Origin: Watersipora subatra
Taxonomy: Eukaryota > Bryozoa > Gymnolaemata > Cheilostomatida > Watersiporidae
DNA: 64,000 bases
Direction of reading: 5' to 3'
Assembly: GCF_963576615.1 (NCBI RefSeq)
Contig: NC_088708.1
Location: 53,865,196 to 53,929,195 of the forward strand
The notes beneath the pieces were generated by a model. That model saw nothing but the letters and a program-made list of their open reading frames with translations, had not been told where the DNA came from and ran no database searches. Numbering within the stretch: position 1 is the first letter of the stretch; each line of letters begins with the position of its first letter. Below are positions 8,020 to 63,501 of the stretch, piece by piece. The translations under genes and the position numbers were made by a program.

Positions 8020-8046
8020 TACTTATACTTATACTACCGCTTATAC

Positions 8047-26272: not shown

Positions 26273-26311
<39 letters not shown>

Positions 26312-33915: not shown

Positions 33916-33987
33916 GAAGAATATTGCGTACATATACATGTAAACATAGACATGTAAAATGATGTTTAAAGCAGCAAAGTGTTTGGT

Positions 33988-38811: not shown

Positions 38812-38930
38812 TTTCTCAAGTAGGTTAATACCTGAAAGTAGGTCTATATCCGGAAGTAGGTCAATATCTGGAAGTAGGTCAATATCCGGAAGTAGGTCAA
38901 TATCCAGAAGTAGGTCAATACGTGAAAATA
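38812..38930 (+). repeat. 18-bp minisatellite (copy B)
   Basis: About seven units of aagtaggtcaatatccgg type, compared with four in copy A. Confidence 0.85.
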
Positions 38931-39767
38931 ACCTTTAATTTTAACCTTTCATCCTTTCTAACCTCTAACCTTTAAATTCCTAACCTCTGGTAATACCAGA
39001 AACAGCACCCAGCTTTAAAATGCTCTAAAACCTGGGTATGTCTGCAGTCATTGAAGTTTCCTTGTCACTGGACTCAGACATGTCCAGCCAAGACCACAGG
39101 TAATGTCTGTGTAACAATGCTCTTAACTATAGGCACAGCTTCTGTTTCAAACAGGCTGAGCAGACATACTCAATCTGCGAAGATTGCGCACACACACAGA
39201 GTATAACTTGAAGGTTTGCTAACAAATTCTGCAGGAAACATCCTCTTCTTTCCTTGTTTATTTATATATTCACAATCCTTAAAGACCTGTTGGCTTTTAT
39301 ACCAAACGAATCACCTCTCTGTTATTCTTGCTGCTCTTTCATGGCTAACCTTAAAAGTAGTGATAAACTCTCCAAGATTTGTTATCACTACCATAACAAA
39401 TTTATTTACATATAAAGTACATACAGTTGATTATCAATACAGTGTAATTAATATTGAATATTATACAATGTACAAAACTGCACAATTTAGATTTATTGCA
39501 CCAGAATGATTGAGTGGCAAGAGATTCTTTTGTCAATCTGTAGACATGAGTAGACAACTAATCATAGTGGCTCTGACCTGAAGATGAAGTCATATACAGA
39601 AAGTTAATAACAAATCATTGCTTAAAACCTTCAACAATTCGTTACAAAGAAGTTAATGAAAATCCATTACATAGAAGTTCATGAAAATCCATTACAAAGG
39701 TATCAATAATTAATTACTACCTAAATTGTCCAGATATGAAAATGCTATCAGCATTATCAGCTCTCAG

Positions 39768-40571
39768 TCATAAACTTGTAACAACAGATGTTGGCAGATC
39801 TTCGTTCACGAAAACCAATAAATCCTGCAAAGTAAACAAAAGAGGACATAGATCGGTGCTTAAAACATGACCAAAACTTTGTTTTATGTAGTTTTATATA
39901 AACTAGACATCCTATTGCTGTTATACAACTCTGGGCAGCCTTGGGTTTATTAAATATAAGTTCATGTTATTTGCTTTCTTTATGAAATGTTGTCCCAACT
40001 TATCTACACTGGTTGTGGTACACTCCAACACCTTCATTACTTGAAAAAACTATTTGAAAGCATTCAGAGGATTTTTGAATATTTAATTATATCAAGTATG
40101 TTTATGCCATACGATATAAAGTCATGTATTAAGAATAACCCAGCTAGTTGTGGTCTGTGATATGGTTCTACTTAAGCTAGTTCAGAAAGCAAGTCATATG
40201 AACTCACTTCTTGAGTGATAAGTTCAGTTGCTGTTACTACATACAAGGATCAGAGGATGGTATAACTACCTTTCTAAATATAAAACACAGTCTCTCACCT
40301 TATTCTGTGGCTGAACATCTTCTCTCTGAGCTGCAAAGTAAGAAGGGGGATAAACGTTATTAGACTCCGGAGTTAGGAGCAACAAATCACTCGCATATTT
40401 GAACTTATCTACGTTTTCTTTCTGTAAAGTCTCAGCACTTCCTTCAATATGGTCGCTAGAGCTATGACAGGCCTGCATAGCACCACAAATAACCTTTTGG
40501 AGGCAGCAGATTGTGGCGATGAATAATATCACACACAATAGAGCAGCGATGATAAGAACTAACTCATTCAT
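39768..40571 (-). CDS. Small single-pass membrane protein with PPSY motif, paralogue 2
   Basis: Coding exons are 40299-40571 and 39768-39824 (minus), phase-0 junction at QNK|GT and ttgcag, giving 109 residues. The chosen Met aligns with the start of paralogue 1 and has A at -3; an upstream in-frame Met at 40616 would add 15 residues in a weaker context. MNELVLIIAALLCVILFIA forms the membrane helix, followed by TICCLQKVICGAMQAC (CC at the membrane edge, further Cys). YPPSYFAA gives the WW-binding PPxY motif, then QPQNK. The C-terminus is EDLPTSVVTSL, whose last three residues TSL fit a class I PDZ ligand. Orientation outside-in (short luminal N-terminus, cytosolic tail) is inferred. It lies in the duplicated region; the copy-A counterpart keeps only the last exon. 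Confidence 0.75.
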
Positions 40572-40616
40572 GGTGCTGATGTTGGCGAATGTTGCTAATA
40601 CTGTGCTGTCAGCCAT

Positions 40617-41026
40617 TTATAAACAACACACCGGGGGTCTAGCGGTTTCCACTCAAAATTTTTAGTAAGAAAAAAATCCCCCAATCAGCCTATGTTCCTA
40701 AATTTTATTTGATCAGTTACTGAGACTAAACACACGATACCACAGGCATTAAATATGTGCTTAAGGAACAAACGCTAAAAATTACACTTACTCATGGATA
40801 TTCCATCAGGATATAAACAGAATATGAACACGTAATGCGGTATAATAATTCCATTGTGTTTGTGCATCTATGGGTAGCGTAGCCTATAAGCTCTGAATAG
40901 CTGCCACTAAACAAACGCAGTTTCTATTTGTTCATATTTTCATGCTTATTCAACTTTTAATATTATATTTCGGTATTGTTATTTTATAATAAAGGAAAAC
41001 TATCTCAATCCATTGTATTATAATAG
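40617..41026. other. Upstream region of paralogue 2
   Basis: Presumed promoter and 5' UTR of the minus-strand gene. No motif is decisive, and no other feature is seen. Confidence 0.4.
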
Positions 41027-42290
41027 GTCACACATACAAGGAACTGACATCAGAACTAAAAGTTGTTCTGCTCAAGTTTTGTTTGAAGATGTTTGTTACT
41101 GCTGGTTAGTTTATAGTGGAGAACATAAGCTGTATTTAAATTAGCACATGGTGACTAAACTAGAATTCATTTCTAGTAAACAGTGTAACATTCTCAGCAA
41201 GCTTCACATTTTAACTATAAACTTACACGAACATTTAGTACATTTCATTAGAAAGTGTCGGCATTTTTCTAGCATTGGCGAATTTTCTGATGTTTGAGGT
41301 GATCTGACTGCCAGGACGTCTCAAGATTAAAATCAACAAAACATGATCGCGGTTAAAAAGCTCAGAAAGAAATATGTTCAAAGTGCTGCCACTAGCTGCC
41401 ATCAATGCTGTTATCCATATTTTTCTATAATTTGGAATTGTTTTACTAGCAACTAGTAAATTTAGTATCAGGTAAAGTTTAGGTAGGAGCTTTACAAATA
41501 TTCAAATGTCTGACTGCAGGTTATGTCTTATATATTCCCATCTCTCACTTACAGTCCCCCAAGGAGAGCATAATTGAGCCAAAGTATGCTTCGTTATTGA
41601 GAAATGTAATGACAACAGTAATTGGTTGTTACAAATATCTAAAATGTTCAGTTACAGTTGAGATGTTAGTGAAAAAGCTCTTGATATATAAGTCTTGAAA
41701 ACTTTCCACTCCAAATATATATTCTTAATCATTGACTCTAAGAGTTCCTGATAGACATATTTATAATACAAAAGAATAGCCTAGCTGATATCAATACTGC
41801 TATATATAATCATGTATATAGACATGTTCTGACTTGTTGAATCCTATCTGATAATTAGAAAGCTCCAACAAGGAACCAAACATTCCAGAGTGTAACAGAA
41901 GAATTCACCAGTAATATTCTGCTATAAAATAAGGGATTATTCAACAAAAATCATAATTTTAGAAAAATGACATTAAGAACAGCGTAGTAAGTTATTGCTG
42001 CCACTCTGCTGCTCTTCTGTCTCCAACTTTATCAGATAGTCTACCATATGCAGGTTGATGACTAGATTGGTTTATCTTGAATATGAAATATATACTATAT
42101 TTCCTGTGCTGTCATCAGCAATGAAGCCTTTTAGTAAATGACATTAATATTCTTGATAAGCTGGTAAAGAGACAAGGACAAACCTCTTAGATAAAGTCAC
42201 TTTATATGCGGGAATGACAATGACAATTTCACAATTAACAATGCTTTTGGATTTCATGGATCACATCATAATTCTAACTTTTGATGGTTT
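41027..42290 (+). repeat. Dispersed duplicate block Y, copy 3
   Basis: Collinear with 27065-28440 from cacacatacaaggaactgac to the ggtttcatt word. It lacks the foldback fragment seen in copy 2, so it represents the uninterrupted form. Confidence 0.9.
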
Positions 42291-44161
42291 CATTTACAGT
42301 GTTTGTGGAAAACATTGGGAAACTTTGTTTTTTGTTTGAGTAGCTAATCAGCTAGCTTGACTATAATTATTCTATTTTTAGACTCGTAAATGTCATGTGC
42401 TCCAGAACTCTTCCAGTCAACGTAGCCTTTATTTTGTGTTTTGATTTTACAGAATCTAAGTGACAGCAAAAAGCTTTGTTTGGCAGAGTAAGGCCTTGAT
42501 ATTTTCGAGCCAGAGTGAACCTGGAGTAAAGTTGAGCCAATGAATGGTTCAAACTCAATAAAACATTTTCATTCCACGGCTCAAAAGGCCAGATTGTGCT
42601 AAATAAGAGAAAACAAACATTATGGAGGAATCTTTTTTGGGCAATTGATTTAATAAGTTGTAGATAATGATATAGCAATGCTATATAACTGCATGCATAG
42701 CAGAAATATCAAATACAATATAGCAAAAAGATTAGACTATTTGATAAGTAATTCATAACAGCTTATTGTTTACCCGCTATAGTGGTTTAAGCAATTCTTT
42801 TGGCTTTTTTACGAGCATTGTTAAACTAAATGACTAACCAGTCGAGGAGACAACTCCATCATTTGAATGGCTTCAATCACTTTATCCATATGAGCTGTTT
42901 TCACGCTATAATGCGTGCAGCTGCAGTGTTTGAGATCTCATTTTAAACTTTTTTTTGCAGTCAAGCCTCTACTTAAGGTTACTTCAACATTTAACTTTTC
43001 TTGCATGTAATGTAAAAATTGAACAAACATTAAACAGTAAATAAAATTTTTATTTTACGTCTGAATTTCTGACAAACTTGACAAAAGCTTTTCAAAGCAT
43101 TGCGGTTTTTTAAAGTAAAGAGGCAAATAAAAATTAAAAAAGAATATAAAATATATAACTTATAAAACAATTATACGCTTAGTTTCAACTTTACCTAGTT
43201 TAATTTCAACTAAGTTTTATCAAGTATCTTGATCACCACTTTCTCCTCTGAACCTACACTTTGTTAAGTGTACACTTCTATTCACATATCTGTAAAATAA
43301 ATAAATAAATATAAATAAATAGTAAATAATAAATAAATATCGGTAAAATAATTATTACTTTATTGATTTTAGTTTTGTACATGCGATTTTGTTTGTCATA
43401 TAAGTTTATATGATGACATTTGTTTTAATGTTATATATAATTATTTTTTATGCTTTATCATAAGTTTTGCAGCTCTGAAACAAATTACACTACATTCTTA
43501 TAAAAGTTTGAGAATGGCTATTTCTGTGAAAATATTGGTTTTAATAAACGCCAATTTTACATAAAAATTAACTCTAAATGTTAAGGTTTGACTGCGTAGA
43601 GTGTATTATTGCAGATTTTCTACGGTCAGTCTACAAAGTGATGCGCTTGGCTGTCTGATTAAAAGTTTAACTTTTTTTTTATAAATTTACATATTAAATT
43701 AGATTTTAAAAACAGGGTATTACATTCTCATGGTACTACTAGATAAAATCTTTACACAGTTTTGTGAGGTTTATATCTGTCAAGTTTTCATAATAAAATG
43801 ATTTTCAACTTTACAGAGATTACCTAATCTCTTCGTTCCTTATTCACATGTGGTTGATAGAGCTAGGTTTCTAAAGACAATTAAAAACTCATACGAAATA
43901 GTTGATGGTTTAGGTTGTAGATATGTAAAGAGGTTGTTTGCTCATGAATAAATGAGCACATAAATTCTTCTCGTATTTACATGGCTATGGCTCAACAAAT
44001 GTATTAGATAAAAGCTATGCTGAATGTACACTAAACCAATTATAGCTCAGTTCTTTTCATCTATCTATATTCAGCTGATTTGCTCAAGTAAGAAAACTTA
44101 CAATGGAAGTTCATTGTCTTGTCAAAACTTTTAGTCATGCTGCAGGCCCCAAGTTCTTTCC
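42291..44161. other. Non-coding AT-rich stretch with AAAT microsatellite
   Basis: Contains an (AAAT)n-type tract at about 43288-43345. The 103-residue minus frame at 42367-42678 has no recognisable domain or splice context. Nothing else supported. Confidence 0.5.
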
Positions 44162-44900
44162 TCAACTTTCCTTTGACATCTTTCTGTAGACTTTGTTAGT
44201 ATTGTTAGACTTTAGAGCTAACTTTAACTGTTTCATCAAAGTACTCACTTCGCTGCCAGTGTAGTCTATAACCACTGGAGTCATTTCCACTCTGTGCTTT
44301 ATATTTCTCTCTCTTATCTCAAATACAAGTTGTTGGTATTTCAGCCTCTTCTCTGTCATATTTTTGCTTTTGATTTTTTACTGGAGAATCTCATATCAAC
44401 TAGCTAAATCACCTCTTTCTTGTATTTCTTAACAACATCTGGCTGGTATACCATTATCTTCTTTATCTGATAATCAAAATTCCAGTTGAACTTTACTTCT
44501 TTGTCTTCCAATACTGAACTTTGTTTCAAGTCACTTTGTACCAGGCCGTTTGTCTAGTAGCAAACCATTCTCCTTACACCATGCTGTCCTGAGAAATTTT
44601 AAAACATTATCATGCCTTGTCAAGTACTCTCTAAATGCCAAGCGTCTACCTTCGGGTATTAAGTGCATCACACCTTCTGTAACCTGCCCACATAGTCTGC
44701 AGATGTCTATTTCAGCCAAAATCCTGTTTCATTTTTAAGCTCTTGTCTCCACCATCTGTTCTTGCTTGTTCTTTCTATGAGTCCATGTTGCACTTCATCC
44801 ACTAGTGACTCTTTTTCTTTAATACTTGATAGATTCTTTTCTCCAGATGTGACTGCTTGTTTACCTTTCTCTCTCATCCTTTTTTTATCTTGCACCATAA
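44162..44900 (-). mobile_element. Degenerate 3' part of an R2-like LINE
   Basis: Minus-strand pieces in shifting frames read: EIDICRLCGQVTEGVMHLIP and REYLTRHDNVLKFL (44531-44719), SSVLEDKEVKFNWNFDYQI (just below), then KRLKYQQLVFEIRERN and VEMTPVVIDYTG (44162-44359). These match, in order, the C-terminal zinc-knuckle (C-x2-C...H, final Cys replaced here), the RHDNV block and the endonuclease-region blocks of R2/R4-type retrotransposon proteins. It is complementary to the RT part preserved at 25304-26272 but is a different, older insertion. Frameshifts and stops show that it is inactive. Confidence 0.75.
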
Positions 44901-45458
44901 ATTTTTCCGTGTTTTTTGTACGCGCCCTTTGTCTTCATACGTTTGACCATGTTCGATCTTAGCATCCCATACATCCCATGTCTTCGCAGTCATTGAATGG
45001 TTTTAAGGTTAGCCTGGGTCCTACATGTATCTATGGTTCAAAGGGTTGTCGCTTATAGTTTTACTTCTAGAACTCCTTTTTTATATTCTGTACAGTTTTT
45101 ATAAGCTTTGACTCCTGAATCTGAATGATTTCTGAATGCTCCTGTCTCAGCGAAACATGACTTGGGTCTGTGACTTATGGGGCCCAAGGCTCTAATGATT
45201 ATCATTCTCAGTTTCCCACCCCATTACTTTTGAGGCTATTATCATTATTATTATCATTATTTAAAATATTACTAGTTGAATACTCGGCGTTACCCCAGTA
45301 ATAAAAAAACTCTTTGGACAAAAAATTAATTTTTATTTAACATATACAACATATACCATTCTAACTTTCAAGCTACATGAGAAAAGTGTTTTGTGCAGTT
45401 CAAATAAATTAAGAGAACAATAAAACAACTGTATAGGTGTTAAAATGTGAAATGGGGA

Positions 45459-46611
45459 CCGCGGGGCAAGTTGAGTCATAAATTGCATTTATGCAAAATT
45501 AGGATTGTAAAACCCATAGATATAATAAACCTATAATAATAGCATAAATATCATAAAGGATTTATTATATCTATGGTAAAACCTTTTCTATGAATAGGTT
45601 AGTGTGTGTTCTATTATACTGAAAATGTGCCATGGTTAATTCTTGGTGAAATTGACAAAATATTCATTTGAAAACTTGTTGCCGTGTGTCTCAACTTACT
45701 CCATCCGTGGCGTAAGCTGGGTTAGTCAATGGAGCAAGTTGGGTCAATTTAGAAAGTATTTAGAAATGTAGTTTTATTACACAATAAAGTTTTACAACTA
45801 CTGTATATTTTGGATTTACACTTAAATATATTTCACACTTATAATTATTATGTGCATGTACATATATACGTTATGAAAGAATATGCATTGATAGTATAAT
45901 TAACATAAAACATCATAGCATATTTTATTAAATGTAAAAATCATTATTAACGTAATTCTACACAAACGCCCTTTATATCTATATATATTTTGTCACCAAA
46001 GCTGAAACTTCCTAGCATTCTGCTAGTTGTTTGAGTAGAGAATAGAGCCCCTAGTACTTCAATGACCTGGTTGAGATCAACTGGTGACATGCCTTCCTGT
46101 TCGGATTTGCTGTACATTCCTTGAGGGGTTCGTTTGTAAAAATCTACTAACCAATTTAATCCCTCATCCTGTTACCCCTCCAACATACACAACTTTACTA
46201 AAACTATCTGTCCTATCTGAACTGATTTCTCCCCCTTCTTCACTGTCTGACCAATCAAACTGTTTGGTTTGGGTTTTTCCTCTGAGCTTGAAGATGAGGC
46301 TGTATTCACATTTTTAATTGTCTTTCGTTTGACTTTAGATTCTTCAGTTGCTGCTTTTCTGGAGTATCAGGTAATATTACAGTCCTAGTTCTTCCTTATT
46401 TTTATGGTAGTTTTGAATGTGGTGCCCTTGATTGCGGTTTTAAAGACTTCAACAGCTGAGTGTGAAGATTATATTGACTGTTTTAATAATTTTCACCTAT
46501 TAGACCTGTATGTGTAAGAACTACAGTTTATATCCTTTTAAAGGTGTCAGCAAAAGTATAAGATCAATAAAAGCTTATGGAGTAAGTTGGGCGAGTGACC
46601 CATCTTGCGGT
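45459..46611. mobile_element. Candidate DNA transposon remnant with GGGCAAGTTGGGTCA ends
   Basis: Left end ccgcggggcaagttgagtca (45459) and right end gtgacccatcttgcggtaa (46593) form imperfect inverted termini. The same word recurs inside (gcaagttgggtcaa near 45745 and actccatccgtggc near 45700). The minus strand of 45990-46380 gives broken, acidic/Ser-rich coding-like pieces (for example QEGMSPVDLNQVIEVLGALF near 46090-46000) that could be a transposase or host-derived relic. No target duplication is certain. Confidence 0.4.
45514..45576. repeat. 16-bp perfect stem hairpin
   Basis: ccatagatataataaa at 45514-45529 and its exact reverse complement at 45561-45576 enclose a 31-base AT-rich loop. 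It lies within the candidate transposon. Confidence 0.85.
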
Positions 46612-46835
46612 AAAGTTTACATTCAATATAGAAAACTCTCATCTGCTAAGTATTCCTTACGAAGTAATGGTAGAAAATGACATTGACCTAAAATGTTCTC
46701 AGCAACCTAATTAAAGAAAACAAACAGAACAGGCAAATCCGTATGTGTAGCTTGGCCTACCTTACCCCTAATTAGCAAGTAATGGTTAGATGGTCTGTTT
46801 TGCAACAATGTTGACAGTAAAAAACCAATTGATAG

Positions 46836-46898
46836 CAATGATATACAGCCCCCACAGGGGGGGGGGGAGGGTGTATACAGGGGGGCTGTATATCATTG
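46836..46898. repeat. 18-bp stem hairpin with poly-G loop
   Basis: Stem arms 46836-46853 (caatgatatacagccccc) and 46881-46898 are exact inverted copies. The loop carries an 11-G run then AGGG. The loop also repeats tatacag, so alternative pairings exist. Confidence 0.9.
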
Positions 46899-47637
46899 TT
46901 GATACTGATATAATTATTGCGAGCTGAGAAAACAAAATAGAAATTATAAATCTGTAAAATTAATCATAACAATGATTACAAAGAAGAGTGTGTATAAAAA
47001 AGGTTACTGTTCTAACAGAAACTATCATCAAAACTTTGAATATGACGATACTGGTGCGTCTCGATACTGGGTATCTCAAAAATGAGATGTCAGACTGCTT
47101 TTGTCTGATCCTTTGTCTGATTGAAAGGAGAGAGAATGTAGAGGCATTCCTACTCGAGATAATATAACGATCTATGTGTAGAAGTTTTAAATTTAAGCTT
47201 TTAGCAATAGGCATGAGGAAGAAATGGAAGTTGAAGCTGATAATGGGACATTTTAAATTGAACTGTCACATTTAAAAAATACAAATTAAAAAAATAGGTA
47301 ATGAATTTTTGAATGGCTTTTAAAAATTTTTAGAAAGTTGAACAAACACAAAAAGTAATATTAATTAAGTACATGTATATAAACATTTAGCTTGTAAACT
47401 GTAATCACGATAAGTGCATTGTAGATAAAATGATTACGAATTATAAGAACGGCCATAGCCTTATGGTTAGTTGTGTGTGTATGCAAACTTGCTATTACAA
47501 TCATTGCAAGTGCAATTCCAGTGCCATGTGAACTTTTCATTACTAGAATGCTATAAATGGACACAGCAACAACAGATAATAAGACAAGCTGGGATTTATA
47601 TAGTCGGATGGTGTTGTGATTATTACCAGTATATTGA
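46899..47637. other. Non-coding stretch
   Basis: No gene, RNA or organised repeat recognised. The short frames have no domain. Confidence 0.45.
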
Positions 47638-47990
47638 TACTAGCTGTGCCTCTCGGCGTTGCCCAAATATTAAAAATCAGCTTATAAACAATGAGAAGTG
47701 ATGAGAGTTGCCTACCACTTGCTATAAGCCTACCACATTGCCAATGGAAAATGGTATTAAAAATTAGCTTATAAACAATGAGAAGTGATGGGAATTGCCT
47801 ACCACTAGCTCACTTGCTCATCTATCACTATTAGCTTGGCACATTGCCAATGGAAAATTCCAGTAAGCTAGTTAGTAAGTGCTAGGCTTCTAATGACTGT
47901 ACGCCATGACATTGCGTAAGCATTGTCCAGCTACGCTATTCTAATAATAGCTATAGCTGGAGGGACACACATACATACTTTGAGAAATAT
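47638..47990 (+). mobile_element. SINE-like repeat, second copy
   Basis: Begins tactagctgtgcctctcggc and continues with gttgccca, shares aaaaatcagcttataaacaa, gagttgcctaccacttgct and the tail agctatagctgg...ctttgagaaatat with 33507-33915. An internal direct duplication of the head portion (47664-47750 and 47757-47850) is present. It ends in a tatagataaagata microsatellite-like tail. Confidence 0.65.
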
Positions 47991-48156
47991 ATATATAGAT
48001 AAAGATAATAAATAGTTGTTGTTGATTTTCTTAAGCCGGTACTATACACAGGAATCTAGATAGAGCTGACTAGAGGTTGTCTGTACCTTCTTCAACATTC
48101 TGGATGATCTAGGCAGAATGAGAATTATACTCCATCTGCTTCCCTTTATTCGATTT

Positions 48157-49136
48157 CAAGCACCTCTACAAGTTCACTACTGCCTCAAGCTCACCCACAA
48201 TAACAAGCACTACAATGACAAGCACTACAATAACAAGCACCACAATAACAAGCACCACAATAACAAGCACCACAGTAACAAGCACCACAACAACAAGCAC
48301 CACAACAACAAGCACTACAATAACAAGTACCACAATAACAAGTACCACAATAACAAGCACCACAATAACAAGCACCACAATAACAAGCACCACAATAACA
48401 AGCACCACAATAACAAGCACTACAATAACAAGCACCACAATAACAAGCACCACAATACCAAGCACCACAGTAACAAGCACCAAAATAACAAGCACCACAA
48501 CAACAAGCACCACAATAACAAGCACCACAATAACAAGCACCACAATAACAAGCACCACAATAACAAGCACCAAAATAACAAGCACCGCAATAACAAGCAC
48601 CGCAATAACATGCACCACAATAACAAGCACCGCAATAACAAGCACCACAATAACAAGCACCAAAATAACAAGCACCGCAATAACAAGCACCACAATAACA
48701 AGCACCGCAATAACAAGCACCACAATAACAAGCACCGCAATAACAAGCACCGCAATAACAAGCACCGCAATAACAAGCACCACAATAACAAGCACCACAA
48801 TAACAAGCACCACAATAACAAGCACCAAAATAACAAGCACCACAATAACAAGCACCACAATAACAAGCACCACAATAACAAGCACCAAAATAACAAGCAC
48901 CACAATAACAAGCACCACAATAACAAGCACCACAACAACAAGCACTAAAATAACAAGTACCACAATAACAAGCACCGCAATAACAAGCACCACAATAACA
49001 AGCACTACAATAACAAGCACCACAATAACAAGCACCGCAATAACAAGCACCACAATAACAAGCACCAAAATAACAAGCACCACAATAACAAGCACCACAA
49101 TAACAGGCACCACAATAACAGGCACCGCAGTAACAG
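48157..49136 (+). repeat. 15-bp minisatellite with Thr/Ser-rich open frame (possible mucin-like exon)
   Basis: About 63 tandem copies of aataacaagcaccac, almost without indels. Because 15 is a multiple of three, several frames stay open on both strands. The plus frame ACA-ATA-ACA-AGC-ACC gives (T-S-T-T-I)n with A, K, V, P and C variants, preceded by KFTTASSSPT and followed by TGTAVTG. A pyrimidine-rich tract with ...gatttcaag (ending about 48156) could be an acceptor, and cag|gtgatt at 49136/49137 could be a donor leaving phase 1. Phase 1 is exactly what the exon at 54447 accepts. Thr/Ser arrays before SEA/EGF/TM modules define membrane mucins. Many variants change amino acids, so selection on this frame is not evident. 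Repeat certain, coding status uncertain. Confidence 0.35.
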
Positions 49137-49400
49137 GTGATTTTGGGCCCTATCTCGCTTGATAAATATGGGTACTTTCTAATCTTCTCTACAATCCATC
49201 CCTTCTATATACTGATAAGCATTTACCTCATGTCTGTGACGTAAACAGCCACTTCAAGCCACCCTGATTATAATGGATACTCGAGAATCAGACTAGTGCT
49301 GATTACGCATGTTTGCTTTAGAATAATTATAGGAGTTGCTAGCTAGTGACGGTGAGAGTCAGTCTGTTAGAAAAGATACGGCAAGCTGTTACAAGCTGTA

Positions 49401-52400
49401 ATGAGCTCTCCATTGGAACTGTCTATCTGGGCACTGGCAGTATTTGCTGCAGTATCTGGTAAGTGGTTGTACACTGTTGAGTTTTTAAACTTTTTAGCAA
49501 CGAACACTGTGTTTGTATGTGTACATTATGTGCGTGTACAATATTACCATAATGTACTCCATGTACATAATGGTAATTTACATGGAGACTGCAGTTCAAG
49601 AATTTAAAAGATATATAGTTTAAACTAAGGATATGATGTAAGATTACCCTGTCCTGCCTTATAAAATGTGTCTGAGAAATTCATTGGTTCGACTACCATT
49701 GAGATAGCTAGAGCGTCAGTCTTGAGCTATCTCACTAACATAGTCAATAGACAATAGCTAATGCTCTATATTTTATATTTACATACCATTTCTGATATGG
49801 AAAGAATACTATTCCATCTTTATTTGGCTTTTGTTCAACAATTCTTGCTCGATGTGAGATGTCAACACTTGATAACAAAATGTTTTAGGTGATATTAAAA
49901 TTTATTGCTACAGACGAGGCTTGCACTCACAGCCTCTGCATCTTTTACTGATCATAAGTACGACGCACTAACCGATTGCACCACTGGAGCGAGTTGGATT
50001 GACTTTTTGACAACCTTTTTGCCACAAATTTACACTGATAATGTGTTTTTGTAATACTATAAAATATTGCTCCAGGTGAGGCTCGAACTCACAGCCTCTG
50101 CATCTCATACTGTTTATAAGTACAGCGCACTAACCGATTGCACCACTGGAGCTTACAATTCTGGGATTTTTATAACACATTTCATCACGAATTTCTACAA
50201 ACCATATGCTCATGTAATACTATAAAAGTTGCTCTTGGTGTGGCCCCTAGTATTTTATATTGTTATACTTGTTATATAATATAATTGCTATACTATTGAC
50301 ACTTACAGTTTCAATTTGTCTGATTTTATTTTTATATCAAAATAAAAAGCACTTTCCGAATACGTAAATCAATGCTTCAGGTGAGAGTAACATTCACACA
50401 AATCCAGATGCTAGCAGATCCAACATAATCCTTGAAAGTTTTATGTTTTTGTATCTTAAAATGATTGAAATGTTTTGAGATAGAGCTAATGTACTAAATA
50501 CTACATACTACTTCATATTACCTATTGTCAGGTTTGTTGAACTGTTTAACCTAGTCAATAACTTTCTGTTATAAATAATAGCAACTTTTTGTTACTATAG
50601 CCTTCAATTCACTATCCCAACTTCTCTACAATACTATCAGATTACCAAATTTTAAAACACTTTTGTTCAACTCACTCAATAATTTTTGAGTTATTTTTTC
50701 TCATTTTTCCTTTGGCATGTAACAAAAATCATCATATTGTTGATGATTACTAATAGCAATTAAAAATAAAAAATTATGCACAAATACAATAAAGTATCTC
50801 AATATTCTGCTGTATCGGTTTACTAGCAGTTCTATTGTTATCACGTTAGCTAAAAATTACAAAGACATTCAGATTCAATTAGCATATAAAAATGGTTTGA
50901 TCCTACGAATGCATAATGTATACCCGCAGGCTGAAGAGGTCTATATGTATAACTAAATATGATTACTTTGCATATGAACTGAACAGTGTGAGTGTGAGGT
51001 AGAGAATAGTTTTTTGTTTTCTCATCTACTTGAAGTTTACTGTTTAAATTAACTCAATGCGAGGAATACAAATAAACATATGCAATATATAACTAAAGTA
51101 ACTTGACTAGCTTTATGCTATATAGCAAGCAATCTGTCAGCTCTATTTTACTGTTTTTTTGACGGTTCAAGTCCGAAAAACTTAGAAAAGTGAAGTTCCT
51201 ATCTTTGAAAAAAGTAGAAAGGTATTTTAAAGGTAGCGGAGAAAACTATTTCAAATGGTATAATTATGTCAAACCACTAATTTGATTTTATTGGCTAACT
51301 GTTGCTCTTTTGTGTGTTATGATTCTTGCATGGCATAATTTGAAAAACATTTCTGTTTGAAACGAAATTATTGCCAATAAAGAAGTATATTGAATTTTTG
51401 AAAGCGTATTACACAGCAATGCCTTTGAAGAGCAAGACGCAATTTTTTGAGAACTTCATGATGACATCTGTAGTACGATGCTGTGTATAGAACTTCCTCC
51501 TATCTATTTGACATATGCTCACCTCACATATACTTTTATTATATAAAAACATAACTCTTTTCAGCTTTTGTAATAAATGGTTGAAAAATCTTGACAAAAC
51601 AGGCTTTATGATGGAACAATGTAGAATCTGTAAAATAAGGCTATATTCTGCAGATTGAAGGAAGTGCACATCACACGAGCTTGGATAGCTCTCTGTTTAC
51701 TTTTTATAAGCGAAAAGATTATTTGCTTCGGTTGCAGCTCTGGTTGATTATCTTTGGTTAGTTCTTTCTGTTGGAGCTGCCCAGCTGCAAATATGATGAA
51801 CACCATCAGTTTTTAGATCCCAACTCACTATGTCCTAAAAGTACATACCATGGAACAGTTCTTGTTTCAGATAAATTAACAGACTTTACTAAAATCTCAA
51901 TGTTTATGTAGCGAAAATGGTGCAAAGGCTTTACATTGGTTCACATTGTATGCTCTGTAACTCCGCCTACATGTTGTTCTAGTTCACTCGGGCCAAGCGA
52001 GGCACTAAGCCAATCATTCCTGTTTGTACCATACGTCTTTTACGCCCAAGGTTCATATACACATGCTGTCAGTTTCTTGTCAGTTTTCTGTGTTTTGAGT
52101 ATAAATGGCATCCAATGTACGCCAAAGTTTCACATAAATTTCTGTTAACCAGTTTATTTAGACTATCAGCTTCCAGTTACACAAAGGTGATTGGCATATT
52201 AAGATAGATCGATATTAATTTTATCATCATCCGTAAATGCTGTTTAGAACAAAATAGACCATGAGACAAAAACCAAAAAAAGGAGAACTAAATTATGTGT
52301 ATTGAAAGAAAAAGCTTTTATTCATAACGCTCCACTATAATGTGAATTGACAAGGTGTTGGTGTCTGGTATCAAGTGTAGTGACTTTTTTGGGAAAGTAG

Positions 52401-55400
52401 GAATGTAATGGATAGTTAGGCAGAAACACATTTAGCTCATCGACATTAATCGATGGTCGCTTAATCGCTCATCGCTGATCGTAGATTGATGATGATTAGA
52501 ATGATTGGATGATGATTAGATGATGATTGGTAGCATAACCTAAATCATAATTTTTAAAATAACTCAATTAGCATTCATAAACTTTTAAAATTAAACTATA
52601 AAGCGACATCAAAGTGTTCTATCAAAGACCGTATTTCTATAACAATTTTTTCTGTTGTAATTTTAGTTAAAAAATATTTTGCTAAGAAAATCATACTAAG
52701 ATTACATCCGAGATTGTTCAATTGCCAGTTGATGTTCACAAAGAAAACAATAGAACCTTTGATTATCATTTCGTTTAAACATCATTCAGTAGACCACAGT
52801 CCTGAGAACACTTGGATTCCACTAAGCAACAAAGAGTTTGTAGATTCAGCACAATCTGCTAAAAAAGACATGAAACAGATATGTATGACTAAATGAACAC
52901 CCAGCATTGTACAAGTAATAGATTCGTGCGATAGGTTACTAACTACTGAATATGTATAATAAGTTACTAACTACTGAATATGTATGATAAGTTACTAACT
53001 ACTGAATATGTATGATAAGCTACTAACTACTGAATATGTATGATAAGTTACTAACTACTGAATATGTATGATAAGTTACTAACTACTGAATATGTATGAT
53101 AAGTTACTACCTACTGAATATGTATGATAAGTTACTACCTACTGAATATGTATAATAAGTTACTAACTACTGAATATGTATGATAAGTTACTAACTACTG
53201 AATATGTATGATAAGTTACTAACTACTGAATATGTATGATAAGTTACTAGCTACTGAATATGTATGATAAGTTACTAATTACTGAATATTTATGATAAGT
53301 TACTAACTACTGAACATGTATGATAAGTTACTAACTACTGAATATGTATGATAAGTTACTAGCTACTGAATATGTATGATAAGTTACTAATTACTGAATA
53401 TTTATGATAAGTTACTAACTACTGAACATGTATGATAAGTTACTAACTACTGAATATGTATGATAAGTTACTAGCTACTGAATATGTATGATAAGTTACT
53501 AATTACTGAATATTTATGATAAGTTACTAACTACTGAACATGTATGATAAGTTACTAACTACTGAATATATATGATAAGTTACTAACTACTGAACATGTA
53601 TGATAAGTTACTAACTACTGAATATATATGATAAGTTACTAACTACTGAATATGTATGATAAGCTACTACCTACTGAATATGTATGATAAGTTACTAACT
53701 ACTGAATATGTATGATAAGTTACTAACTACTGAATATGTATGATAAGTTACTAACTACTGAATATGTATGATAAGTTACTAACTACTGAATATATATGTT
53801 AAGTTACTAACTACTGAATATGTACAATAAGTTACTAACTACTGAATATGTATGATAAGTTACTAACTACTGAATATATATGATAAGTTACTAACTACTG
53901 AATATGTACGATAAGTTACTTACTACTGAATATGTATGATAAGTTACTAACTACTGAATATGTATGATAAGCTACTAACTACTGAATATGTATGATAAGT
54001 TACTAACTACTGAATATGTATGATAAGTTACTAACTACTGAATATATATGGTAGGTTACTAACTACTGAATATGTATGATGAGTTACTAACTACTGAATA
54101 TGTATGATAAGTTACTAACTACTGAATATGTATGATAAGTTACTAACTACTGAATATGTATGATAAGTTACTAACTACTGAATATGTATGATGAGTTACT
54201 AACTACTGAATATGTATGATAAGTTACTAACTACTGAATATGTATGATAAGTTACTAACTACTGAATATGTATAATAAGTTACTAACTACTGAATATGTA
54301 TGATGAGTTACTAACTACTGAATATGTATGATAAGTTACTAACTACTGAATATGTATGATGAGTTACTAACTACTGAATATGTATGATAAGTTACTAACT
54401 AATGAATATGTATGATAAGTTACTAACTACTATGGCATGGTTGTAGGTGTGTCAAGTCTAAACAGGACATCTCCCACAGAGAGTCTCTACGACATACAGC
54501 TTGGCATCAGTGATCAATCAAGATGTACTTCTGAGGTATGCTTCTCCAGGTTCTAGGAAGCATCTGACTTAGCTGTCAGATTAAGAACTTGAGCTAGTAA
54601 CAGACTTGCTTTATTATTATGAACTAGTGAAGAATTGAGAGAGAGATAAGGTGAAGCAATTTTTTTGAAAAATAATAAAAGTTGATGAGTAAATAAAAGT
54701 AAGGTTTACAGTCTTTCCAATACCGAGTAGGTTAGTTCTTGGCAGTTTATGAACAGCGGAAGAGCTTCTGTTAGCATATTTGATAGATTTGATAAATAAA
54801 TTTGATAGCATAAAATTGATATGATATAAAAATGCGTGACTTACAAGCTCTAGAGGTAGAACTGTTTGGCTGGGTGATGCTATAATCAGTACAGTATGAG
54901 GGCACTGTTAGATGTTGGCTCTACAATGAATAGTTTTACCGTACCAGAAAGTATTGGCTTACGGTTGGTTTTTATTTTAAAATGTAGCAAACAAAACATG
55001 GTGACAGGTTCAGTGGTGCAATCGGTTTATGTGCAATACATGTAAACTCTGTGAGATGCAGAGGAACTGAATTCAAGCATCATATGGAGCAATGTTTCTT
55101 TAGTAGCACAAAACATATTGTTAGTGGAAATTTGTGATAAAAAGTGTTGGTCAACTTCAAAGTTGTAAGATCTAGTAGTGCAATTGGTTAGGGCGCTGTA
55201 CATACTTGTGAACAGTAGGAGATGTAGAAGCACCGCGTTCAAGTTTCACCTGGAGTAATAGTTTTTTTATTGAATGACAAAACATATTATTAGTAGAAAT
55301 CTGTGATGATAAAATCTGTGAAGTTCCAGTGCTCAATATGTTAGTGCACTGTGCTTATGAGCAGTATGAGATGCTGAGGCTACGAGTTCAAACCTCACCT

Positions 55401-58400
55401 GGAGCTACTGTAGTTTTTTATTACAACAACATACTATTAGTAGAACTTCGTGAAGAAAATTGTCAAATTACTAAAATCACAAGCTCCAGTGGTGCAATCG
55501 GTTAGTGCACTGTATTTATTAACAGTATGAGATGCAGAGGCTGTGAGTTCGAGCTTCTGCAACTGCTTCTACCTATTACCAAAACATACTACTAGTAAAA
55601 ATTCACGATGAAACATTTTGCCATAATATATGCAGCGCCAGCTCCAGTGGCGCAATCGGTCAGTGTGCTGTACTTATTAACAGTATGAGATGCAGAGACT
55701 GAGTTTGAGCCTCCCTGAAACAATCACCTCTTACAGAGCGATAAAAAATTTGATTAGTAGATGCTCCCCAAGTGGAGCGATGTTAGAATTAAAAAAGATT
55801 TACGTTTTATTTCTGCCATCAATCAGCATGCTATAGGAACTGCTACTGGGGCTGGTGTTTGATCTTCTGATGATGCATATAAAATTATCCCATTTCTAGC
55901 TTTTGTCTCATTTTCTGAGCTTCTTCAGCATGGCTTTTCCTCTCTTAGACCTTTGACTTGCGTATGTGTGAAACCATCTAATTTTATAGGTGTATGATGA
56001 GTTCTGTGAGGCTCTTGTTGGTCTGCAATACAAAGAGTGTGAGCTAATATCCAGAGGATGTAACAGGAATGTTCAGTTTCGGGTATCATTTGGTTACCAC
56101 GAGTCCAAAAATGTCATCATGGAGCACCTTTCTACCTTACAGGTAAGTCAAGAACTAAGGCTACGAATAAATCTGCAGCTACATGAATAGATGGGAGCGG
56201 AGTATTCTAACAAATTAGATAGGGCTGAGTCTCCCTGGTATGGTGTCAGCCATTTTAAAAATCTGAACTTTAACTGGGCAGCTCGCCCATAAAGTTAGTA
56301 TAGCAGGAGCTCAATCAACATGATACTAAATCAACATGGTAATAAATACTCATGCTAACAAAATGCCGGTTAGTGAATTAAAAAATATTGATAAGCTGAA
56401 AAAATTTACAATGTAAAAATGTTGTTTTAAATCTTGTATACAACATACGAAAGAATCTCATTTGAAGTATTTAAATACAGCCTCCAATCAACTGTCGCCC
56501 ATGTGAATCAAGGCAACCTTCGAGTGTACCACACAAATTTTAAACTGTCTGTTGGATACAACAAGCATGTATGGTTTTCACTAAGGATATCATACCTTGG
56601 TAACTATGTCATTCCAGTGAGAGACTAGACCTGCACGATTTGTCTCCCCATGTCAATTCGGTTATAGATCTGAACTTCAATCGAACACCGTTTATAACCA
56701 ACACACATGATGACTCACCACGGTGTCAAACGATGTCACAATTGCTTGCGATTAACTTGACACTGAGGCCACCTGAACATCCTCGTTTCATGAACCTTAA
56801 CTTCAGATTTTTGTAATGAAATATAAATAGCTTTCGAGAATGGATGTGATATCTACATATATGTAAAGCAAAGATTAAAAAAATCTTTCAAGAAAAAAAT
56901 AGCGTCAACTTCCATGAAAGATTCTGAGTATCCGGTCCAAGCACGCAGGTGCAGTTTTTATGATATGGAAACGGAAACCGCACCAAAAAGTCGCACCTCG
57001 AACTCGCACCGGTAATCCGGAGTTTTCGGTTTTGTCCGATGTCAGAAAATAAAAGATTTGACTTGATTTAATAGAAACTAGCAGCAACCACTGGATCAAA
57101 TCGAAACATCGTGCAGGTCTACCGGAGACTCACTAGAGATATCCTACTTGTTAACTAAGTCAACCCAGTGACTAACCAGGGACATTCTATTTGTTAACAA
57201 GTCATCCCAGAGAATAACTAAAGATCTCCTACCTTGTTAACAAGTCAACCCAGAGACTAACTACGGATATCCTAGTTAGTTAACTAGGTCAACCCAAAGA
57301 CCACTAGAGATATCCTACTTGTTAACTAGGTCATCCTAGAGATTAGCTAGAGATCTCCTACCTTGTTAACAAGTCATCCCAGAGAATAACTATAGAGATC
57401 TCCTATACCTCGTTCACTATATTACCCCCAAAACGAACTAAAGACAATCCTTTCTGTTAACCTGGTAATTACAATGTTAACCTAATTATTATCGAAATAA
57501 ACTCATGGTTACATCTTTGCTTTTCTTAAACAGTTACTTGATTTATGGCCAGCAGCAGAGATTAACTACATCGAAACAGAACTGTCATGGTGGTTGATTC
57601 AAATAACGATAGCAATTGGGTTTGTTAATCATTGCTGGTTGTTGCTCCAATATTTTGTATCTCCTGTGCAAAAGAATGTGGTTTAGACGAATCCCACAGA
57701 GCTATGTTGCTGATGAAACTCATCAGTTTTATAATATGAAATGAACGTATGAAAAAACCTAACTCATTAAAAAGGTCTTTTCATCAAGACATTGCTAACT
57801 ACAGAGGGTGACAACTCCGCTGTTCTATTTTGCGTAAGTTTGAACCATAAAAAATTGATATACACTATTGACAAAATAGATAAATTTTTGAATTATTTTG
57901 GCATCCAATTTTAGGTTAAAAAATATATTAAATACACTATATTATTAAATCTATTATATTTATTACTGTAATAGAGGCTAGTAGAAATTATATATCTAAT
58001 GTAAAAAATTGCAATAGTCAAATACTGAGCAGTAAAATAGTTGGTGTACCACTTATGCCAATAGCTGGCCAGCCTAATATTCTTGTTGTAGAATTAAAAA
58101 ACTATTCAACAAGTCTGTCAACTTTACAACAATTTAGTAAACATTGAACAACGCTGTCCTGTATATGCAACTCCCAACGAAAATACATGACAAGAATGTA
58201 TTTACTTTAAGCCAACAGCCTAATCTTGAAATATTGTTGTCAGTTGAACAATAGGTGGTCAGTAGAATTCCTTTTCAGCAGTTTTTAGGTAGGTGCCGGG
58301 CTATAACTTGGCACAAATTAAGCAACACGGATTACATTTTTCGTACGATGCAGTCCTGTTGCGAGAGAGGTCAGCTATAGGGCAATTTCATAACTTGAAT

Positions 58401-61400
58401 GCTTACAGAAGATTTACGCTATTATCATAAGGACAAATATTATACCTTAGAATTAGCTCAGTGCACTTGAGTTCTGACTCCTAGCAGGCTTACAATAGAC
58501 AATGCCTAGATACCCTTTACCTCTGCCTCATGTATGAGTGTCAGATCAGCTGACTCAAGCGTGTCATCTCGTTACTTGAGCCACACCCTAATATAATAAC
58601 TTTCATCATGGAATGGTCTTAGGTGTCAAACTCTATGTTGACAACTACGTTGCAATGCAAGTGTTTTAAATACTACACGCACAGTATTTTTTACCTATGG
58701 GAAAATTTCAGGTGGAGTTCTTAAGAGTCATTCTGATGACACTAGGGCTGTTTTAGCAAAACCTGGTAAATGTTGCTAATAAATAAAAAATGTAATAAAA
58801 AATCTTTGTCAAAATAATCTTTTCAGAATTATTTAAGCGAGGTTATATACTATATCATAATATATCATATACCATAAAATTTGTATTACATTGTACTAAA
58901 CAAAGTACTTTTATATAATTTTACATTACAATTAATCCAAAGGCGATAAGCGCAACCTTTATATGATATGGACAAGAGGAAGAATATCAAAAAATAAATA
59001 TATTTGATTATCTAGCATTAGAAAAGGGTGTATGTTTCTCCTTTGCAGTCGATCATTTCGACAATGGTTGTCGTATAGTTTAGGCTTTATCACCGACTGC
59101 CATGCAGCTCTTTTTTCATGTGGATGCAGAAGCTTTACAGGTTGTACATTCGGTTGTACAGGTTTTCGGTTATTCAGGTTGTACAGCTGTACATTCGTCC
59201 ATGTAACGTCACCTTGATCAATAAAATTTCTCTCTCTTTTGCAGTCAGTCGTTTCTGCAATGACTGTCTTATGGTTTAGGTTTTATCACTAACTTCCATG
59301 AAGCTCTGTTTCACATCTTCTCTTACCATCTGTTTGTGGCTAGTTCGCTCAAATTCCTGTTACGCTTAGATCTATTTTTCTATCTCAGTCTGGGTCTGCG
59401 CTGATTCCTCTTTTATTCATAGAGTTGTGAACATAATAATTGTCTGGCAATCTTTCATCACCCATCCTGTGCGTGTGTCCCAGCCATCTCAGGCCTTTCA
59501 TCACCCATCCTGTGCATGCGTCCCAGCCATCTCAGGCCTTTCATCACCCATCCTGTGCATGTGTCCCAGCCATCTCAGGCCTTTTTCTATCATAATGTCC
59601 ACCGTGGATGGAAGGCCAGCCTGTCTTAGGATTTCGGGGTTCTTGACTTTATCTTTCCAGGTGAAAGATATGGTCAAAAACACCAAACTCTAACACTGCT
59701 GGAAAGACCTTATCTTTCCAGGTGAAAGATAAGGTATACTGACCATTATGCTGTGTAGTTGTTTCATCATGACTGTGTGCAGTCCGTTAACTTGTGTTTG
59801 GTACACTGTTTAGATCTCAACTCCATATAATAGAGCTGTTAGATTACAGCTTTGTATACCTTACACTTAGCTCAGATGGTTGCATGTTTGTTTCTACACA
59901 AACAACTCTGAAGTTTTCAAAGGGCACATTTACATAAAAACGAAACCAACAATATCATCATGCATTTATCCTGATGACCACAGTAAACCTAACTATAAAC
60001 AAAATGTCCCCAATATGGCTCATTATAATATTTTTTTAATTACTGCAAATTAAATGATACAAAATAAATCAATAATAAAATTAAATAGTTTAATTAAATA
60101 TGGTAAAAAATAAATTAATTCATTACACTTACAACTTACAAGGTTGAGTACATGAGAGAAAAACAGTTGATGAATCAAACTGCAGCGTGACTGATTTGAG
60201 ATCTCCAAAGAGAAACGAGTAATGATGTGTGTGTGTGCGTGTGTGCGCGTGTGCGTGCGCGTGTGTGTGCAGCATGCTTCTGTAAGTCGACAGCGCTTGT
60301 ATCATTTCATGTCCTTGAAATAACTTATCAGGACTCATTAAGCTACTTTGAGTGGTCCCGAACATTGACCAACGGGTTTGTCTCATCTCGAAATCTCCTA
60401 AACTGGTGGTAAGGCACAGACAATATCTGAGGGAAATTTCAAGCGCAGGAGTCGCCAAAGACCTGCCTTACAGGAGTAAAACACCTTAATGGGGCTCCAA
60501 CAGAAAGTACACACGCTACCCTAGTAGTAGCTGCTCCCTATCCACATCTAGCATTCAAAGCACCAAAATCTTGAATCATTGGTTTCAACTTTGAATTGTA
60601 AAAGATTTGAGACATTCTGAAACTGAGGTTGGACTGTAGTACAATATGACATCCTTTCAAGTAGCTTATGCCTTGGAATACCAATATACGAGCAGTTTAA
60701 TTTAAAAGACAGTTGGGATAGAAATATTGGGTATGGATCCACTTATAATGCTTGCAGGAACAAAGATTTTTCAACATTTGATCTTGAGACACCAAAATCT
60801 GTAGTGATCGTTAGTGGGTAGATATAACGGTTATAGATCTCAACTACAGTCATTGAGTAGATGAGCCACAGCAGAAGTACGCAATTGGATCATATTACTA
60901 TAAGACTAACAGCACTAATAGGTACGAACATGTGTTGCTTTTTTAAAAGATACCAAAACTCCAAAAACTAGTTGTAGAGGAGAAATGCAAAATATTTTGC
61001 CCTTTTCACTAGAACAGTGTTCTAGCTTCTACAAACAATATAGCAATAGCTATATTTCAGTTTAATAATTTTTCATTGTCAAAAAATATAAGTTTCATGA
61101 ATTTGTTTTCTTTAAACCATAAATAAGAAAAGGGAATTTAAAATAATTAAAGGCTCACCCTGAATGTAGTCGCGACGAACAAATTTCATAAAGAATAAGG
61201 AACTATTCTGTTGCAATACTTATTACTTTTGTTATGTCTGGTTCAGACCAATGTTGTATGTCGTGAGAGGTGCTGCGCCCGACAATGCTCTTGCGGAGTG
61301 AGCGCAGGATATAGCTGCGTCATGCTGCGATTTCATAGTTATCACAGTTCACATCAATAGCACACCTGCATAAGCTTGCATAGCTGGGTGCAGCACCTCG

Positions 61401-63501
61401 CATGACATTGGTCTGAACCAGGCATCATAGTGACGATAAGGGTTGAGCAGGCAGCGGTGACTACCAGAGACGCTGGAGTAGATTAAGTAATATAAGGTAT
61501 AAAGCAGGTATAAAGACTATATAAGTTAGCGATGATAAAACGCTTACTAGTTTTCACAAAACTTTAAGCTGCAACATTTCTAAACGCCAATTCTGAGGCC
61601 TAACTGCAAGCAATTCCAACAAATATGTTAATTCTACAAGCAACCTTTTACTAAACACAGAGCTATTTACCTTTTATGTGATTATCAAATGAGATAACCT
61701 GTAAATATTAGACATAACAGCTATCGCAGTTGTCTTGATAAATTCCTAGAATTTCAAATGAGATATTAACTACAAAAGCGTTCCATTCCCAAGTAACATT
61801 GATATTTTACAGCAGGATCAGTGCCATCTAATTCAAATTAGAACATTACACGTACTCACAATGAGCAATTGTCAGAAATTTGAGCTAAGAGAGGTTGTCT
61901 TCAATGATTTTACAGGACTACAGAGGAATGAGCATCTTGCGCTCAAAAGTAGATGACCTGAATGAATGCTCTGAGAATATTCATGGGTGCTCGAAGAATG
62001 GCTACTGTACGAATATAATGGGGACATACAGGTAAGTTGGTGTTATAAAGATGAGACAGAAACCTACAAGGAATACTGAACATACACACGCATGAGGTAT
62101 TACTAACACACAGAGGATATATTACTAATATATATGTGAGATATTACAAACATACACATAGTATATTACTAACACACAGGGTATCAATAGCTTACCTATA
62201 TGTAAGATAGTGCAAACACATGCAATGTATTACACGTACTAATATAAATGCGATATATTACTAACAAATAATACTAACATATAAGAGAGATATTACTAAC
62301 ATAAACATAAGATATTATTAATATATACGTAAGATGTTACTAACATATATGTAAGATATTACTAACATGGTATATGTGAGGTATTACTAACACCTGTGAG
62401 ATATTACTTACTAGCACCTGTGAGATATTACTAACACATTGAATATTACTAACATATATGTGAGATACTATTGGAGCAGCAAATGTTAAACAAAAGACCA
62501 AAAAAATTGCCAAGAGAACAAGTTGCACTAAAAGACACACACAATTGAAAAATTATTGCAGTAGGAACGAGTTCAAAAAGGAAATTAATATATAATAACA
62601 AAAAGACAAGTTATACAAAAGGAAACATACATGATAATATTAAACATAAGGAGGGCATTGCTAATACACCAGATAGAGAGAGTCATTAAAGGAGAATACA
62701 GATGAAACCTTTCCAGGTGGACACACATTAGGACCATTATTGTATTTTGAACCATACTGTCGTTTAGATGCGTGATGAGATCTTCTTCTGCATCGTAGAT
62801 TAAGGCTAATCAAAATATTCAACTTTTGCACCAAGATATCAGTTGGTGGTTAGAGCATTATAAATTGTTTACTACTCTACTTGTACAGGTGTCAATGTGG
62901 ATTTGGATACCAGCAATCCCTAACTGCTACACACCCTCCTGGTACATACTGTGTGGCGAGATGTACTCAGAGGTCCTGCAAAAATGGTGGCTCATGCTCG
63001 GCAGCTCCAGACGAGGTGTCAGAGGTGACATGTGAGTGCCAGAAGGGTTACGCGGGTGAGAGTTGTGAAGATAAGACCGGTATCAACAATTTGTCGCGGG
63101 AGACGATTGTAGTCATAGCGGTGGTAGCGAGTATTGCGGCACTGCTAGGAGTGGTACTGAGTGTCTTTGCGTGCTACACACTGTTCAGGAGACGAGTAAC
63201 GGATGACAGTAGTGAGGCGAGCAGTATCAGTGGATTCAAACCAAAATCATTGTCAGCGCACGAGTATGATAGAATGACTGATCTAGGAAGCGTATCACGA
63301 GCAAATCATAGTTTTGTCAGCACCATCGATGAAGAGCCTGAAAGCACTTCCATAAAAAGTAACAACGTTTTCAATTCTGGATTAATGGGGTCTCGACGCA
63401 GCATTCCTAGTGAACATGGCGACCCAACACCGGCTCTTAGCCCTGTCAATCGCACGGACAGACACGCTGCTTCAGATATCTCCCAACCGGACTACTATTG
63501 A
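49401..63501 (+). CDS. Type I membrane protein with two EGF domains (possibly SEA-EGF, mucin-like), 342 aa, five exons
   Basis: Exons are 49401-49458, 54447-54535, 55990-56142, 61916-62031 and 62889-63501. All junctions are GT-AG (donors gtaagt, gtatgc, gtaagt, gtaagt), phases 1,0,0,2, giving 342 codons plus TGA. An in-frame stop at 49368 supports the start. Residues 1-20 are a signal peptide; N25 and N206 are N-glycosylation sequons. Residues 46-113 hold four Cys (46, 55, 66, 73) and a VQFRVSFGYHESK segment that may be a short SEA-like fold. DLNEC at 114-118 starts a calcium-binding EGF (Cys 118,125,131,140,142,160) with the Asx-hydroxylation pattern C-x-N-x4-Y-x-C-x-C. A second EGF has Cys 164,169,175,187,189,198 (CECQKGYAGESC). 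Residues 212-238 form a transmembrane helix, RRR stops transfer, then a 104-residue Ser-rich tail ending QPDYY. Cell-surface adhesion or receptor role is inferred. No specific orthologue is claimed. Confidence 0.88.
49907..49990 (-). pseudogene. tRNA-Ile(UAU)-like pseudogene in intron 1
   Basis: Matches the intact copy at 50069-50152 in the 5' half (gctccagtggtgcaatcggt) and anticodon region. The T arm is changed (gtgagtgcaagcc) and the 3' acceptor strand no longer pairs. Confidence 0.7.
50069..50152 (-). tRNA. tRNA-Ile (anticodon UAU) with 11-nt intron, intact copy
   Basis: The minus strand starts gctccagtggtgcaatcggt and ends ctcacctggagc. Acceptor arms GCTCCAG/CTGGAGC pair over 7 bp, discriminator A follows, and the T arm GTGAG-TTCGAGC-CTCAC is canonical. 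The anticodon stem CTGTA/TGCAG frames loop CTTATA|A, with an intron of about 11 bases (aacagtatgag) after position 37. Animal tRNA-Ile(UAU) genes typically carry an intron at this place. It decodes AUA. It lies inside intron 1 of the membrane-protein gene on the opposite strand, in a 160-bp tandem unit with a decayed sister. A third partial unit follows to about 50250. Whether it is transcribed or is the founder of a tRNA-derived repeat is open. Confidence 0.65.
50260..52920. other. Intron 1, left part
   Basis: AT-rich intron sequence. Small gatgattag repeats occur at about 52490-52530. No nested gene or element recognised. Confidence 0.5.
52925..54432 (+). repeat. 28-bp minisatellite abutting exon 2
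   Basis: About 53 units of 28 bp built on ataagttactaactactgaa and tatgtatg. A 112-bp four-unit higher-order repeat with marker words agctactg, aattactgaatattt and gaacatg recurs three times between about 53235 and 53570. The array stops only about 14 bp before the acceptor ag of exon 2 (54447), so it supplies most of the branch-point region. Confidence 0.95.
54536..55007. other. Intron 2, left part
   Basis: No feature seen apart from a possible very decayed tRNA-derived stretch around 54870-54960. Confidence 0.4.
55008..55722 (+). repeat. Tandem array of five decayed tRNA-Ile(UAU)-derived units in intron 2
   Basis: Unit starts at about 55008, 55170, 55323, 55483 and 55641 (spacing 153-162 bp). 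Each has a tRNA-Ile(UAU)-like body followed by a 75-bp spacer with acatattattagtagaaatt words. The copy at 55483 keeps the first 20 bases, anticodon region and gagttcgagc but has lost 3' acceptor pairing. The copy at 55323 keeps cacctggagc at the 3' end but has a mismatched anticodon stem; the others are more damaged. The same unit type lies in reverse orientation at 49907-50250, on the other side of exon 2. Confidence 0.75.
56627..57120. mobile_element. MITE with 13-bp inverted ends and TA flanks, intron 3
   Basis: agacctgcacgat at the left and atcgtgcaggtct at the right are exact inverted copies, bordered by T on the left (TA at 56626-56627) and A on the right (TA at 57120-57121). The interior is GC-richer (aaccgcacc, ccggagttttcgg words) and has no long frame. 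A TA target suggests a Tc1/mariner-type or similar MITE. Confidence 0.65.
57125..57430 (+). repeat. About 46-bp imperfect tandem repeat, intron 3
   Basis: Six to seven diverged units contain gagatatcctacttgttaac, aagtcatcccagagaataac and similar words. Two subtypes alternate (gatatcctacttg and gatctcctaccttg). Confidence 0.85.
57431..59029. other. Intron 3, middle part
   Basis: No nested gene or repeat element recognised. AT-rich tracts around 57890-57970 and 58780-58930. Confidence 0.45.
59030..59880 (-). mobile_element. LINE ORF2 C-terminal fragment, intron 3
   Basis: The minus strand from 59870 downward reads CNLTALLYGVEI, a stop, then TVYQTQVNGLHTVMMKQLHSI, later FTWKDKVKNPEILRQAGLPS (59640-59690), IEKGLRWLGHMHRMGDERPE and HEKRAAWQSVIKPKLYDN (near 59110). 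This order (LLYGxE, K-D-x-V-x-N-x-E-x-L, R-W-x-G-H-x-x-R-M, R-x-A-W) is the conserved post-RT tail of endonuclease-type LINE proteins of the RTE/CR1-like kind. The GH-x-x-RM block is triplicated by a 43-bp tandem repeat at 59456-59583 and the tail is duplicated near 59242-59310. Stops and frameshifts show decay. Confidence 0.75.
60222..60275. repeat. (GT)n/(GC) alternating purine-pyrimidine tract
   Basis: gtgtgtgtgtgcgtgtgtgc and following gcgtgtgcgtgcgcgtgtgt words make a continuous alternating tract, a Z-DNA-prone microsatellite in intron 3. Confidence 0.9.
61234..61425. mobile_element. 192-bp MITE-like element, intron 3
   Basis: Ends atgtctggttcagaccaatg (61234-61253) and cattggtctgaaccaggcat (61406-61425) are inverted repeats matching at 19 of 20 positions. 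Homology continues inward through aggtgctgc / gcagcacct. The interior is GC-richer than its surroundings and has no coding frame. Target duplication is not clear. Confidence 0.75.
62085..62470 (+). repeat. Degenerate tandem repeat in intron 4
   Basis: Irregular units of about 20-40 bp contain gatattactaacacac, tatatgtgagatatt and similar words. Strongly diverged from one another. Confidence 0.8.

Follow-up and report, generated by a model that had tools for sequence, protein, structure and literature searches.

The 15-bp minisatellite at 48195..49135 (plus strand) is, with a probability that we put at about 0.82, a non-coding tandem array that belongs to the 5' flank (or promoter region) of a distinct gene, which has five exons and encodes one short type I membrane protein. 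We analysed a window of 64,000 nucleotides (66% A+T), in which tandem arrays are abundant (62 TRF rows). A sequence-only reading of this DNA had proposed that the array may be the Thr/Ser repeat exon of a transmembrane-mucin locus, spliced to the downstream gene; the gene stands, and we do not favour the exon.

There is good support for the downstream EGF-EGF-TM gene, all five exons of which are on the plus strand. Exon 1 (49401..49458) carries the start codon and the signal peptide MSSPLELSIWALAVFAAVS and leaves phase 1. Exon 2 (54447..54535) is entered in phase 1 and left in phase 0, and has an alternative acceptor at 54480 with the donor unchanged. Exon 3 (55990..56142, phase 0-0) holds the core of a Cys-containing module, exon 4 (61916..62031, phase 0-2) the first half of an EGF_CA domain, and exon 5 (62889..63501, stop codon at 63499-63501) the rest of EGF_CA, a second EGF domain, a TM helix and the cytoplasmic tail. 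The earlier claim that exon 2 accepts the phase supplied by the signal-peptide exon is confirmed by the joined frame (49401-63501), which is phase-consistent and encodes 342 aa with no internal stop. The domain order is signal peptide, Cys-containing module, EGF_CA, EGF, TM and Ser-rich tail. Both EGF-type matches exceed the Pfam cut-offs, EGF_CA at E=5.4e-8 and EGF at E=1.7e-5, and the EGF_CA match crosses the exon 4/5 junction, so that the short gene holds up without the array. The signal peptide and the TM helix were called from hydropathy alone, the candidate helix corresponding to a peak of 2.92 at residues 211-229. The profile search returned the two EGF domains that had been expected, with the hydrophobic TM segment and the tail after them, and the SEA domain was the part that failed to appear: the spliced 342-aa protein has no SEA match among those listed by Pfam at E<=10, a divergent SEA being possible. 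The cytoplasmic tail of about 104 aa ends in DYY (63490-63498) and gave no match at E<=10 to PDB chains of at least 20 residues. The protein has the EGF domains, TM helix and cytoplasmic tail listed for transmembrane mucins, and also the signal peptide, EGF domains and one TM helix of EGF-containing single-pass membrane proteins. It looks like an ordinary member of the latter class, probably a receptor-like or adhesion protein. Introns 1 and 2 also contain six matches (at most 5 substitutions) to a tRNA-like, SINE-like core, at 49965 and 50127 on the minus strand and at 55012, 55174, 55488 and 55646 on the plus strand; the segment 50068-50152 passes the Rfam tRNA model.

The array itself is very regular. 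TRF gives a period of 15 with 62.7 copies, 93% matches and 0% indels over 48195-49135, and from 48206 we count 62 units in register with the consensus AGCACCACAATAACA. The plus-strand frame that reads TSTTI is, as had been claimed, open for over 300 codons (48122-49162, 346 codons without a stop), yet this is no more than chance would give. When random 15-mers are repeated, calculated for perfect repeats without variation between units, an open frame is found in 99.2% on a given strand and in 99.9% on either. Two frames of the minus strand are likewise open across the array (327 and 337 aa). The TSTTI unit uses four codons (AGC, ACC, ACA, ATA), none of which can be turned into a stop by a single substitution, and the openness of this frame is therefore uninformative.

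The differences between units show no purifying selection or codon-level constraint in the TSTTI frame. The 62 units differ from the consensus at 39 bases in all; 9 of these differences are synonymous where 9.9 would be expected (P(syn>=obs)=0.70), and counting distinct changes only gives 2 against 2.8. Two other frames have an excess of synonymous differences when all copies are counted, the minus-strand frame CYCGA (17 versus 11.1 expected, P 0.003) and the plus-strand frame APQ*Q (17 versus 13.2, P 0.035). This excess is absent among distinct changes (4 versus 3.0 and 4 versus 3.5, respectively), which indicates that duplicated variants can mislead the synonymous test. The test is also weak as an argument against coding, because homogenisation can leave coding repeats in tandem with little visible constraint. 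Nor is the conserved length a sign of coding, because a 28-bp array in intron 1, with a period not divisible by three, is also without indels (0%, 53 units in register).

The main rival takes the array for a genuine exon of the EGF-TM gene, either an alternative 5' exon or an internal one preceded by a signal-peptide exon that escaped detection, so that the gene would also have a long mucin-like form of the MUC13 or HEG type. We consider this unlikely, although several features speak for it. The array ends exactly at a donor, CAG|GT at 49137, which ranks 23rd among the 3,511 GTs of the window (the exon 2 donor ranks 22nd), and the acceptor of the hypothetical exon at 48161 scores close to that of exon 2 (ranks 551 and 509 of 3,704), these ranks coming from human weight matrices. 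By arithmetic, such a donor would fall within 20 nt of the array end in about 1.5% of cases. The earlier claim that the array ends at CAG|GTGATT in phase 1 is correct for entry in phase 0, the hypothetical exon at 48161..49136 (plus strand) being 976 nt long. It is the sole candidate for a phase 0-to-1 exon in 47000-49300 at the cut-offs used, of which the acceptor cut-off was chosen with the exon 2 score already known. The match of splice phase is by itself a one-in-three chance. The mucin reading is poorly supported, since the open frame and the matching phase on which it rests are both cheaply obtained by chance.

A further difficulty for that reading is the signal peptide. The T/S-rich frame lies 5' of the signal-peptide exon 49401-49458, so linear splicing cannot join this exon ahead of the array. 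Our scans covered single-exon signal peptides inside the 64,000-nt window; split or outlying ones would be missed. The strict scan found no signal-like first exon in 40620-48160 and, on the whole plus strand, only the one at 49401. The loose scan gave 10 plus-strand candidates, of which 6 lie upstream of the array and none is in phase 0. Entry into the array in phase 2 is possible at 48190, and five of the upstream candidates are in phase 2 (two of these share one site), which favours the rival. Composition cuts both ways. Units with at least four S/T/P residues out of five on one strand make up 1.1% of units of random composition, 0.9% of 15-mers sampled from the window outside the array (2.1% when the array is included) and 5.3% of shuffled array units. 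The rarity of about 1% on a given strand counts for an exon. Thr and Ser make up 237 of 325 residues (73%) and Pro only 2 of 325 (0.6%). For PTS regions, PMC9080433 quotes >40% S+T, which the array exceeds, and ~5% Pro, of which it falls far short; taken as a whole, the array lacks the PTS composition described there. Together with the lack of constraint and of a detectable SEA domain, these results lead us to prefer the caveat of the sequence-only reading itself, a chance open frame, over its mucin exon. The features that it described are correct at every coordinate that we checked.

The comparison with known proteins is similarly mixed. With the EGF-bearing membrane mucins of the MUC13 type the protein shares a signal peptide, an extracellular module, two EGF domains beside one TM helix and a Ser-rich tail. 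Unlike them, the locus has no PTS exon able to follow the signal peptide, SEA is not detected, and the array is nearly free of Pro. MUC3, MUC12 and MUC17 are further membrane mucins with EGF domains. According to PMC1552070, PTS, EGF and TM co-occur in Muc13 and HEG, in line with a mucin exon, and HEG is described as having EGF and TM without an identifiable SEA, which is also the arrangement here. The tail resembles in length and ending the KRIT1-binding one of HEG1 as described in PMC4733052 (about 104 aa ending in the two aromatics YY, against 111 aa ending in YF). It differs in that the Rasip1-binding stretch TDVYYSPTS, quoted in the same paper, is absent by eye, and in that it has no match at E<=10 among PDB chains of at least 20 residues.

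A second rival, in our view very improbable, is that transcripts of the EGF-TM gene include the array as 5' untranslated or promoter sequence and that expression depends on its copy number; its end lies 265 bases ahead of the start codon at 49401, which would suit such a role. We return to the non-coding minisatellite in the 5' flank as the preferred reading. The array would have expanded through duplication of its unit. With a period divisible by three and a unit free of stops in most frames, long open frames would arise automatically, and the Thr/Ser content of the TSTTI frame would follow from an A/C-rich unit. The array is thus probably not spliced into mRNA, and the EGF-TM gene would give one short type I protein whose Cys-containing module resembles SEA in outline at best.

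A dispersed repeat lies close to the 15-bp array, since the 5' flank of the array (47637-47748) has a copy with 79% identity at 33505-33621. Repeats are found elsewhere in the window as well. The regions 22-7066 and 31782-39991 form an old segmental duplication, with pieces of about 71-86% identity that include several minisatellites, and copies of a dispersed repeat (about 82-92% identity) lie at 7993-8635, 27054-28440 and 41015-42293. Fragments on the minus strand at 25662-26624 resemble what we take to be the reverse transcriptase of a non-LTR retrotransposon. Two similar frames at 29197-29628 and 40266-40616 (minus strand) would encode short one-TM proteins with PPSY motifs, by eye perhaps paralogs.

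Introns 1 and 4 of the gene contain arrays of an unexpected kind. The intron 1 minisatellite (52930..54431, plus strand; 28 bp x 53.6) adjoins the exon 2 acceptor and has 44 exact TACTAAC motifs. The last of these (54421..54427, plus strand) is the presumed branch point; its branch A is at 54426, and the G of the AG that forms the acceptor (54445-54446) follows at a distance of 20 nt. Intron 4 has a degenerate array of ~22-bp units (62084..62470, plus strand) with 10 exact motifs. In the window, TACTAAC occurs 63 times against 13.1 expected; all 54 copies in the two arrays are on the sense strand, and elsewhere there are 1 on the plus and 8 on the minus strand. Shuffling 34 array units (one hand-picked row per place from the 62 TRF rows, with two from one intron 4 stretch) gave at least three motif-bearing units in 9 of 20,000 trials and at least two in 220, the observed three motif-bearing rows representing two places only. 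A likeness as good as that between the two arrays was found in 10 of 2,000 shuffles, and they may be of common descent.

In intron 1, all but two of the 44 exact motifs (42) have an AG 21 nt downstream. Against a function speaks that the 28-bp units show no special conservation of the branch A (it differs in 6 of 53). Skipping of exon 2 (89 nt) would by computation lead to a stop at codon 22. When the 58 AGs of the array and acceptor region are joined to exon 1, 56 run into a stop. Only two read through into exon 2: that of the true acceptor, and one immediately ahead of the last TACTAAC, whose use would add 9 residues. The repeats match SF1/Quaking sites. Tandem UACUAAC binds SF1 according to PMC3116199, and the preprint PMC11483029 describes pairs of ACUAAC for which SF1 and Quaking compete, Quaking repressing the exon. 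The intron 1 array resembles Gomafu/MIAT in having UACUAAC repeats on the transcribed strand (PMC3116199) and RAI14, competed for by Quaking and SF1, in having the motif beside a 3' splice site, there as a dual ACUAAC (PMC11483029, preprint). It differs from the Gomafu/MIAT class in copy number, a single minisatellite of one intron carrying 44 exact motifs against at most 8 in the vertebrate RefSeq transcripts of Table 1 in PMC3116199. The simplest account is a minisatellite grown out of, or beside, a strong branch point. That it would act as a multivalent SF1/Quaking-type platform switching the EGF-TM gene, with 10 further sites in intron 4, is distinctly doubtful.

The locus illustrates clearly how a minisatellite can mimic a mucin exon, even in splice phase, when three divides its period, and which tests tell the two apart. 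If the branch-point array of intron 1 is functional, competition between SF1 and Quaking at a single exon could be tested on it in a natural setting and at very high copy number.
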